Assembly (NCBI RefSeq): GCF_900129705.1 | Contig: NZ_FQWO01000001.1 | Span: 248,001-312,000, forward strand | Direction of reading: 5' to 3' | DNA from: Flavobacterium granuli | GTDB lineage: Bacteria; Bacteroidota; Bacteroidia; Flavobacteriales; Flavobacteriaceae | Length of the DNA: 64,000 bases | In this document: piece by piece, positions 242 to 30,446 of the stretch | Layout of the letters: every line of letters begins with the position of its first letter | Numbering within the stretch: the first letter of the stretch is position 1 | Notes under the pieces: model-generated | What the model was told of the DNA's origin: nothing | The model's database searches: none | What the model saw: only the letters and a program-made list of their open reading frames with translations | Position numbers and translations under genes: made by a program

Positions 242-460
242 ATTATTTTTTTGGGTTTAGCTTAACCCCTTTCTGCATCTGTTTTACAAAATTAGCAGTC
301 AACATCGATAATGTTATTTTATTTTATTAAATTTAATGTAATTTACTGAAATACAAATAAATAAAACCAGAACTGAATGAAAAGTGGAAACCAGCGACCA
401 CTATAAAAAACGGGGCCATACCGAAAAGCCACAAGAGTAGGGAACTAAAAAAAAGAAATT

Positions 461-19911: not shown

Positions 19912-20012
19912 TTTGAGAATATGATAATTTTAGTCGTGCAATTTACAAATTTTTTTAATGATTGCTTAACCTTCGTTCAGCTTGTTGATAAAAAAGCAAT
20001 TAAACTTCTTCT

Positions 20013-20090
20013 TAGCCCCGATGGAAGTAGCATCCCATGCCTTGCGAGGAACGGAGCAATAAGGCATGGATACAACGGACAGCGGGACTA
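20013..20090 (+). ncRNA. Structured intergenic element of a type common in flavobacteria (Flavo-1-like)
   Basis: Begins TAGCCCCGATGGAAG and ends AGCGGGACTA. The ends pair (TAG-CCC-G with C-GGG-A-CTA), and inside them ATCCCATGCCTT pairs with AAGGCATGGAT apart from one bulged C. I recognise this layout as one that recurs between genes in many Flavobacterium genomes, and it resembles the Flavo-1 RNA motif; that identity is from memory and not checked. It lies in the divergent region between icmF and the DUF4197 gene, about 125 bases before the latter. Confidence 0.5.
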
Positions 20091-20135
20091 TTGTGGCCAA
20101 ATAACCCCAAATGTTTAAGCTTCTAAACAAAATTA

Positions 20136-28571: not shown

Positions 28572-28595
28572 AATCTTAGTCCTTTTATTGGAGTG

Positions 28596-28603
28596 CAAAA
28601 TTA
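28596..28603 (-). promoter_or_regulatory. -7 promoter element of prfA
   Basis: TAATTTTG on the minus strand matches TAnnTTTG. The leader would be under 20 nt. The upstream box is only an AT-rich stretch (CTTTAAATAAAAATTTCG). Confidence 0.55.
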
Positions 28604-28700
28604 CGAAATTTTTATTTAAAGTTTTCTATTTGATGTTTCAAGTTTTTCAGCTGCTTTTTCAGGCTATCCACTGTCTCTTTTTCTGGCAAAAAAGCCCCAG

Positions 28701-29216
28701 CTCTGCGAAATATAAACCAGTAAAAACAACAAAATACAATCGTAATGGCTCTGCGAAGTCGCAAAAGCTGGTGCGAGCATCTTGCTCGTACACACAACCA
28801 CCCAACTCTGTAAAGTATAAACCAGTAAAAACAACAAAATACAATCATGATGGCTCTGCGAAGTCGCAAAGGCTGGTGCGAGCATCTTGCTCGTACACAC
28901 AACCACCCAACTCTGCAAAGTATAAACCAGTAAAAACAACAAAATACAATCATGATGGCTCTGCGAAGTCTCCCGACTTCGTAGCCATTCCAATAATCTA
29001 CAAAGACAGGAAAATAAAGTATGCTAAAATTAGAATCATCCTCTGCGAAGTAGAAACAACAAAATACAATCATGATGGCTCTGCGAAGTCGAAAAGGCTG
29101 GTGCGAGCATCTTGCTCGTACACACAACCATCCAACTCTGCAAAGTATAAACCAGTAAAAACAACAAAATACAATCGTGATGGCTCTGCGAAGTCTCCCG
29201 ACTCGTAGCACAAACT
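28701..29216. repeat. REP/BIME-like palindromic repeat cluster
   Basis: Five copies or part copies of a 105-bp unit. The block AAAATACAAT recurs at 28731, 28836, 28941, 29061 and 29166 (steps 105, 105, 120, 105). Full units contain the palindrome GTGCGAGCA-TCT-TGCTCGTAC (28771, 28876 and 29101) and CTCTGCGAAGTC. The 3rd and 5th copies instead end in a GAAGTC-TCCC-GACT hairpin, which closes each run. Both strands have long open frames here, but these only reflect the repetition. No transposase gene is present in the window. Confidence 0.8.
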
Positions 29217-29379
29217 GAGCAAGTAATACAATTTCACAATCAAAACACTTGCTATCAACGAATTAACTTACTATCAAAAGCTAACCGCTCAGGCATACCG
29301 CTCACTTCAGGAAAGACTCCTTGATCTTAATTTATGTAAAAAATGTATAATAAATAAATTCTTTAATATACATTTTTAA

Positions 29380-29387
29380 TACCTTTG
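29380..29387 (+). promoter_or_regulatory. -7 promoter element of a candidate small RNA
   Basis: TACCTTTG fits TAnnTTTG and would start a transcript near 29394. No good TTG box precedes it. There is no open frame downstream before the terminator at 29591-29619. Confidence 0.5.
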
Positions 29388-29393
29388 CAAAGA

Positions 29394-29619
29394 ATACCCA
29401 CCAGTCCCAGAAAATAAATCTAATACCAGTGGGAATTAAATTCTAAGATTAGCGTTTTATTTTAATCTCAAAGATTAACTTTCTAATCTGCTTTACTACG
29501 TATCCAATTAAATAGATACATAACATACAAAATAAATTATCTATGTACTCCATAGTATTTTATATTTAGAGTTAATAACTCTATCACCTAAAACCAAAGT
29601 CCGAGCTTTGGTTTTTTTT
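29394..29619 (+). ncRNA. Candidate structured intergenic RNA, about 225 nt
   Basis: Between a promoter box and a strong terminator lie several self-complementary segments: CCCAC (29397) with GTGGG (29429); AGATTAG (29446) with CTAATCT (29483), enclosing TTAATCT-CAA-AGATTAA (29462-29478); GTATC with GATAC (29500-29519); CTATG with CATAG (29541-29555); TAGAGTT with AACTCTA (29567-29583). The end is AAACCAAAG (29591) with CTTTGGTTT (29606-29614) and a T run. No start codon with a usable frame is present. It could be a 6S-type or other small RNA; I cannot name it. Confidence 0.5.
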
Positions 29620-29750
29620 ATGATGCCAGACTATCCAGCGAATTATTTTTAACAAAGATAAGCCTAGTTCAAAATTTAGGCAGCAATTATTCATTCTAAT
29701 TATTTACATTTTTTTTGTGGCTACTGTCATTTCTTAATAATCACCCCAAG

Positions 29751-29820
29751 GCCATGCGAAGTATATACAAGTCATTACAACAAAAAAAATCGTAATAACG
29801 CTGCGAAGGGTTCGCATCGC
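29751..29820 (+). repeat. Degenerate copy of the 105-bp repeat unit
   Basis: ATGCGAAGTATATACAAG followed by CAACAAAAAAAATCGTAATAACG and CTGCGAAGGGTTCGC aligns with the unit at 28701-29216, including the final palindrome (GCGAA-GGG-TTCGC). Confidence 0.5.
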
Positions 29821-29933
29821 CTTTCTTTTGATATGATAAAAAACTTTGTAATTCCCCATAATATTCTTAACTTGAGAGGTTAAAAATACCACTGAGATCA
29901 AATCATATTTGCTCAAAAAAGCGACATACTATC

Positions 29934-30446
29934 ATGGAAAAATATTTGCGTCAATTGATTACAATTGAATTTGAAGATAAAAAAGACCTTTTTACCGGCT
30001 TTCTGATTGATTGGACCGAAGATTGGATTTTGATTAAAAACAATCCCGTTGATTTTATTATTGATGGTTATACGATTTTGAAAAACAAAAATGTAAAATC
30101 GATTACCCAAGACAAAGACCATGAATTCACCGAAAGAGTCATTAAATTAAAAGGTTTAAGAACCAGTGCCGAAGAAATAATACCGCTTACTGATTTAGAA
30201 ACCATTATCCATTTTTTAGCGCATAAATATGAAATTTTTCAGATTATGAAAAAGTCTGACAAAGCGGTTTATCTGGGTAGACTCATCGAGATCAATGACC
30301 GAGAGTTGGTCATGGATTTTTTAGGCCCAGAAGGAAAATTTGAGGGAGAAATGAGTTTCAAACCTAAAAAAATAAGAGCAATTGAATTTGACACCGACTA
30401 TATCAACTCCTTAAAATTAATTATTCAAGAAGATAATAAAAACTAA
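29934..30446 (+). CDS. Hypothetical protein, possibly two tandem Sm-like barrels
   Basis: 170 residues, soluble, acidic and lysine-rich, with no signal peptide. I do not recognise a named family. Two halves look alike in layout: residues 8-57 (IEFEDKKDLFTGFLIDWTEDWILIKN with YTILKNKNVKSI) and 105-155 (SDKAVYLGRLIEINDRELVMDFLG with MSFKPKKIRAIEF). Each resembles a beta-strand set of an Sm-like or similar small barrel, with a Gly after the second strand; this is a guess from pattern. It stands alone between repeat-rich gaps, so neighbours tell nothing. Confidence 0.65.
   Translation: MEKYLRQLITIEFEDKKDLFTGFLIDWTEDWILIKNNPVDFIIDGYTILKNKNVKSITQDKDHEFTERVIKLKGLRTSAEEIIPLTDLETIIHFLAHKYEIFQIMKKSDKAVYLGRLIEINDRELVMDFLGPEGKFEGEMSFKPKKIRAIEFDTDYINSLKLIIQEDNKN

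Follow-up and report, generated by a model that had tools for sequence, protein, structure and literature searches.

A conserved 34-codon frame opposite a candidate small RNA in Flavobacterium granuli suggests a type I toxin-antitoxin-like module

Features of the locus in Flavobacterium granuli

The locus described here lies in a stretch of 64,000 nucleotides of the F. granuli genome (contig NZ_FQWO01000001.1, positions 248,001 to 312,000), referred to below as the window. It sits between 105-nt tandem repeats beside prfA and a 170-aa gene (p170). An initial annotation made from the letters of the window had proposed an undescribed structured RNA on the plus strand, possibly a flavobacterial 6S RNA. 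The features found on the two strands are collected in Table 1.

Table 1 Predicted features of the locus, in window coordinates
Feature	Position	Strand	Remarks
Peptide ORF, 34 codons and stop, MEYIDNLFCMLCIYLIGYVVKQIRKLIFEIKIKR	29449..29553	-	predicted membrane helix, basic C-terminal tail, putative toxin
-7 box of the peptide mRNA, TATCTTTG, TAnnTTTG type	29653..29660	-	99 nt upstream of the ATG
Predicted peptide mRNA, ~259 nt	29388..29646	-	both ends inferred from boxes; z -6.70
-7 box of the antisense RNA, TACCTTTG	29380..29387	+	facing box in 11/13 loci (strict), 12/13 within 200 nt
Predicted antisense (antitoxin) RNA, ~226 nt; the RNA proposed initially	29394..29619	+
Intrinsic terminator of the antisense RNA, doubling as 5' leader hairpin of the peptide mRNA	29590..29615	+
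Hairpin right after the peptide stop, candidate mRNA 3' hairpin	29397..29433	-	poor T run in the window copy
AU-rich hairpin and T run (inverted repeat), alternative peptide-mRNA terminator	29341..29378	-	-9.8 kcal/mol
Perfect hairpin AGAGTTATTAACTCT, peptide-mRNA 5' leader	29568..29582	-
Start-codon hairpin CTATG-GAGTA-CATAG	29541..29555	-	window copy: 168/300 shuffled leaders as good

The plus-strand signals on which the proposed RNA had been based were largely found. The TAnnTTTG promoter box and the terminator, a hairpin followed by a T run, are both present, and a terminator scan gave 2 hairpin/T-run sites in 751 bases compared with 0.2 in shuffles. Hairpins exist between the two signals, and the plus strand folds better than its dinucleotide shuffles (z -3.92; 1 of 200 equally good). 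One hairpin had been described as nested. All four of its repeat arms occur (AGATTAG 29446-29452, TTAATCT 29462-29468, AGATTAA 29472-29478 and CTAATCT 29483-29489), but the best fold arranges them as two adjacent hairpins, and the AGATTAG/CTAATCT set lies mostly inside the coding sequence of the minus-strand 34-codon frame.

The further statement that the region has no open frame is correct for the plus strand, where 29394-29619 contains no ATG-to-stop frame of 10 or more residues. It does not extend to the minus strand, where the conserved 34-codon frame is open from 29553 to 29449; a frame of this length falls below the 60-aa cut-off of the ORF listing. The nearby 105-nt tandem-like repeats carry GGCTCTGCGAAG and occupy 28704-29203 of the window; by themselves they create long frames at 28588-29208 (plus strand) and 28612-29211 (minus strand).

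The peptide family and its coding frame

To identify related loci, we searched 398 Flavobacterium genomes by DNA. At E up to 0.01, 127 of them gave matches, mostly short AT-rich pieces, and long matches alone were used at first; the search returned a long match in G339 (82% over 177 nt) and a shorter one in G164 (77%, 71 nt). A pattern scan of species genomes added one more locus, in Flavobacterium sp. HJJ. All four copies found by DNA have a 34-codon open frame opposite the candidate RNA, ending KQIRKLIxEIxxKR. A profile search at E up to 0.1 then matched 93 of the 398, from which family-like frames were kept, and a later profile search matched 20, of which 12 were accepted and eight (G046, G058, G115, G147, G149, G329, G365 and G393) were dropped because the frame had an unsuitable length, contained stops or was truncated. 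This leaves 12 of the 398 genomes with an accepted member, among them the window's, and together with HJJ these make 13 distinct loci encoding peptides of 32-34 aa, four found by DNA and nine by peptide only. The locus of G919 is identical to L034 / HJJ over 700/700 nt and was counted once. Even at E up to 10 the window's genome gave just one match, and hence has one copy.

Outside Flavobacterium, overlapping sample draws at the level of the family (397 genomes), the order (196) and the phylum (114), in which Flavobacterium was included, yielded no accepted member. The family-level draw gave 24 matches: the window, 17 genomes in which the match lies inside frames of 436-448 aa, and six others. 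One of the 436-448-aa cases was read, G520 and G732 were read and rejected, and the weak matches in G592, G675, G756 and G573 are known from the result table alone. The order draw returned two genomes (the window's and G919) and the phylum draw one (the window's). The longer frames belong to a protein of ~440 aa with Fe-S-type cysteine motifs, whose N-terminal membrane helix resembles the peptide (MDYIPNILFAITLIIGIGYFVKNIRKLIRNIK in L066). This match was seen in L066 and 16 other family-level genomes and could be due to chance or hint at an origin or target of the peptide.

Five residues are invariant across the 13 peptides (M1, K21, R24, K25 and L26). The N-terminal two thirds are hydrophobic, every locus encoding a 16-residue stretch with a mean Kyte-Doolittle value of 1.34-1.86, and the C-terminal tail has a net charge of +3 to +6. 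A structure model of one sequence consists of a single helix over residues 2-33 (mean pLDDT 94.7). With a size under 60 aa and this hydrophobicity, the peptides fit a type I toxin, and a membrane location is predicted. For the 13 members, Pfam gave no match above cut-off (best E 0.0052, Dredd_2nd), nor did NCBIfam (best SAR1012_fam, E 0.0028, 17.3 bits against a cut-off of 40); PADLOC gave zero matches, and the PDB contained no match to the peptide.

Several tests argue that the minus-strand frame is coding. It is stop-free in 13/13 loci, and its BLOSUM score of 1.75 compares with 0.08 ± 0.24 (maximum 0.76) in 500 column shuffles, a test that is biased in favour of the frame because nine of the 13 loci had been found by peptide. 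With the four DNA-found loci only, the score is 2.44 compared with 1.09 ± 0.37 (maximum 2.29), above all 1000 shuffles. Over the 13 loci, differences at codon positions 1, 2 and 3 number 1137, 688 and 1323, and within the first 31 codons the five alternative frames contain 16 to 62 stops each. Pooled over all pairs, pN/pS is 0.54, and it ranges from 0.24 to 0.91 among 14 close pairs; the highest value, 0.91 for the window copy and L036, counts against a type I reading of the locus.

Promoters, terminators and RNA structure across 13 loci

The architecture around the frame was compared over the 13 loci, with the same windows moved along the same loci serving as controls. A TAnnTTTG box lies on the peptide strand 93-117 nt before the ATG in every locus (4.1% of slid windows), and so does a terminator on the opposite strand, 33-51 nt before the ATG (6 of 1183 slid windows, 0.5%). 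The facing antisense box was found in 11/13 loci with the strict window (slid windows, 1.5%) and in 12/13 when it was sought within 200 nt; it lies 50-65 nt past the stop codon in eleven loci and 101 nt past it in L058, and is absent from L104. The promoters and terminators of the nine loci retrieved by peptide only played no part in finding them and so count as independent evidence. The conserved frame, the facing promoter boxes and the antisense terminator are shown by comparison of sequences.

From the conserved boxes and terminator we predict that the candidate RNA is complementary to almost all of the peptide mRNA, covering the entire frame and all of the message except ~27 nt at its 5' end. 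It would then be an antisense RNA with promoter and terminator signals of its own, overlapping the peptide mRNA by position. The proposal of an undescribed non-coding RNA stands in so far as comparison backs a promoter and a terminator of its own; as a stand-alone structured RNA it is not supported, because a conserved small gene lies opposite it and RNAalifold retains no conserved helix except the terminator. The expectation that its stems would be kept in relatives was likewise not borne out, as the terminator hairpin alone survives in the 13-locus antisense alignment. The consensus comprises 5 pairs in the mRNA alignment (A4) and 10 in the antisense alignment (A5, in which, as in the 13-locus folding, L058 was shortened), all at the terminator hairpin, and 6 of the 10 antisense pairs have changed on both sides. 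As a family feature the nested AGATTAG/CTAATCT hairpin was rejected: it is kept in the window copy, L036, L034 and L037 and is mostly absent from the other nine loci. With the terminator alone conserved, the other hairpins are local to the window's subgroup or variable in sequence and position.

The minus strand of the window copy folds more strongly than the plus strand, and none of 200 shuffles was as good. Over the 13 loci, z ranges from -2.8 to -8.0 on the peptide strand and from -3.0 to -7.0 on the antisense strand, and is more negative on the peptide strand in nine. These data bear on the idea that the plus-strand product is an independent, trans-acting structured small RNA which lies opposite the frame by chance. 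Such an RNA would have the promoter box, terminator and favourable z of the plus strand to its credit. However, the opposite frame is conserved, a promoter box is present on the opposite strand in 13/13 loci, the terminator is the only conserved helix and in the window it is the minus strand that folds better, and we regard this explanation as highly improbable.

An identity as 6S RNA, for which length is the one point in favour, has next to no likelihood. The Rfam scan reported no 6S family at the locus: there was none in the window at the gathering score, and none within 29200-29950 at E up to 5. The only 6S-Flavo candidate of the genome is elsewhere (G000:C12:596305-596413; 76.3 bits against a gathering score of 85, E 8.4e-13), and the 6S-Flavo model, RF01685, has 108 positions compared with the ~226 nt at the locus. 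Two other Rfam candidates were set aside, both matches covering the terminator: BTncRNA_FopS (RF04319), at 29543-29622 with 20.8 bits against a gathering score of 56 (E 1.3) and with no match in the window's genome at E up to 0.001, and MicX, a weak match below its gathering score. Elsewhere in the window, Rfam places a DUF805 RNA at 379-447 (plus strand, 70.3 bits) and a Flavo-1 RNA at 20010-20093 (plus strand, 55.5 bits).

On the peptide strand, the interval following the stop codon (29397..29433 in the window) folds at -14.1 to -23.9 kcal/mol in 13/13 loci. A strict scan for a peptide-strand terminator was passed by 5/13 loci, and the window copy failed it. Bacteroidota hardly use Shine-Dalgarno sites, and no Shine-Dalgarno-like 4- or 5-mer was found within 20 nt upstream of the start in any of the 13 loci. 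A closed translation start is common, though not universal, among type I peptide mRNAs. Summed over the loci, the start region has a folding energy of -46.8 kcal/mol compared with -29.2 ± 5.4 in shuffles, the lowest of 300 shuffle sums being -52.7. Among individual copies, 168 of 300 shuffles were as good for the window and 242 of 300 for L036. In 7/13 loci the AUG is less accessible than the average position of the transcript.

Genomic setting and interpretation as a probable type I-like module

The neighbours of the 13 loci, with gene names assigned by eye, are mostly different: a serine recombinase at two loci, a restriction-modification gene in the HJJ region, and polA-like or coaX-like housekeeping genes elsewhere. 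The recombinase genes, at L036 and L037, are 70% identical and lie 385-520 nt past the peptide ATG on the same strand; a link of the family to recombinases was rejected, as within the flanking sequence covered it concerns these two loci only (2/13). An origin in phages or plasmids was also rejected, since neither a DNA search nor a search with the window's peptide gave a match in either. The exact pattern did not occur in viral contigs, and a pattern from a nine-row alignment matched 26 stretches there, none of which was confirmed.

Homologs of p170 are present in 9/26 genomes, and among eight loci compared p170 adjoins prfA only in the window's genome. The 5' side of prfA was read in 12 of 15 Flavobacterium relatives (L118-L127, L129 and L130) and carries no peptide motif within 1.5 kb in any of them. 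Neither the p170 comparison nor the prfA 5' sides yielded a clean empty site. The neighbours on the 5' side of prfA mostly differ between species, and the place therefore looks prone to change.

The patchy presence of the peptide at mostly unrelated sites suits a dispensable module that moves. This bears on an alternative in which the frame encodes no toxin but a small membrane protein that modulates a membrane complex or a stress response, with the antisense RNA tuning its dose. It predicts an identical anatomy, and a helix that binds a partner is conceivable given the similar N-terminal helix of the ~440-aa membrane oxidoreductase-like protein. Presence in 12/398 genomes at mostly unrelated sites is nevertheless more in keeping with a dispensable module than with a housekeeping regulator, and we consider the non-toxin alternative unlikely. 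We favour, as probable, a type I toxin-antitoxin-like module in which the candidate RNA is the antisense partner of the 34-residue peptide. Points that weigh against it include the absence of a curated toxin-family match above cut-off, the lack of a conserved helix other than the terminator hairpin, a start-codon fold that the window copy does not support, the missing antisense box of L104 and the distant one of L058, and strict peptide-strand terminators in only 5/13 loci. For the loci as a whole, the best reading is a new type I family, found so far in Flavobacterium alone and dispersed over mostly unrelated positions.

From this anatomy we infer both transcripts and their ends, the duplex, a translation block, degradation by RNase, membrane insertion and toxicity. 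A structured minus-strand mRNA of ~260 nt would encode the 34-residue membrane peptide and its basic tail. The plus-strand RNA, ~226 nt long, would begin close to the mRNA 3' end, run through the complete reading frame and end ~27 nt short of the mRNA 5' end. By base-pairing with the mRNA it would keep the peptide from being translated, and the duplex would probably be exposed to a double-strand RNase. Loss of the antisense RNA would allow the peptide to be made and inserted into the inner membrane, and growth would be slowed or stopped. A more tentative reading, to which we give slightly less than an even chance, is that the family is native to Flavobacterium and is controlled, without any Shine-Dalgarno site, by structure at the start codon together with an antisense RNA of nearly full length; this would suit a phylum that makes little use of such sites.

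The anatomy can be likened to that of the par locus of pAD1, which has an antisense RNA and convergent transcription. Compared with par/Fst, the predicted Flavobacterium RNAs overlap over nearly their full length.

Most type I toxins are small hydrophobic peptides with one helix and a positive C-terminal part, according to an extract of PMC8309996, and their systems combine a closed peptide mRNA, opened by processing or refolding, with silencing by an antisense RNA, according to an extract of PMC11228461. As described in those extracts, hok/Sok, Fst/RNAII, bsrG/SR4, AapA1/IsoA1, TisB/IstR-1 and TimP/TimR are alike in their hydrophobic one-helix peptide (PMC8309996) and produce a structured mRNA for the peptide together with an antisense RNA, as predicted at the Flavobacterium locus (PMC11228461). 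The switches described in the part of PMC11228461 available to us expose or hide a ribosome-binding site, whereas the Flavobacterium loci are without a Shine-Dalgarno-like site in 13/13 cases. Fst/Ldr peptides are small, helical and membrane-bound, as predicted for the Flavobacterium family, but the PXXXG core given for them in the same extract of PMC8309996 is not conserved there. The Flavobacterium peptides also differ from known type I toxins in having no curated Pfam or NCBIfam match above cut-off.

Within the phylum, the portion of PMC7366714 consulted reports seven putative type I pairs in Bacteroides thetaiotaomicron, compared here by description only; these are divergently encoded with a candidate sORF per gene, whereas the Flavobacterium loci have a conserved frame on one strand only. 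A 2025 paper states, in the part available, that type I systems were known only from Proteobacteria, Firmicutes and Tenericutes until it added a case from cyanobacteria (PMC12390103). That case, msoT1/msoA1 of Microcystis, is a type I-like locus that likewise falls outside those three phyla; it was tested in E. coli, and its likeness to the Flavobacterium locus is by description only (same extract of PMC12390103). Among the open-access papers listed by our searches, none described a type I system in Flavobacterium, and the available portions of PMC8092290 and PMC12654330 contain nothing on this locus.

Loci of this kind escape annotation because the gene has only 34 codons and the signals that stand out are those of the antisense RNA. 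RNA-controlled toxin-antitoxin modules are rarely reported in Bacteroidota, the only ones we found being the seven putative pairs of a single species in the extract of PMC7366714. If our interpretation is correct, the Flavobacterium loci would be the first Bacteroidota type I family defined by comparative evidence among the literature found, and their 13 examples with a fixed architecture would make RNA-controlled toxins in Bacteroidota directly testable in laboratory Flavobacterium.
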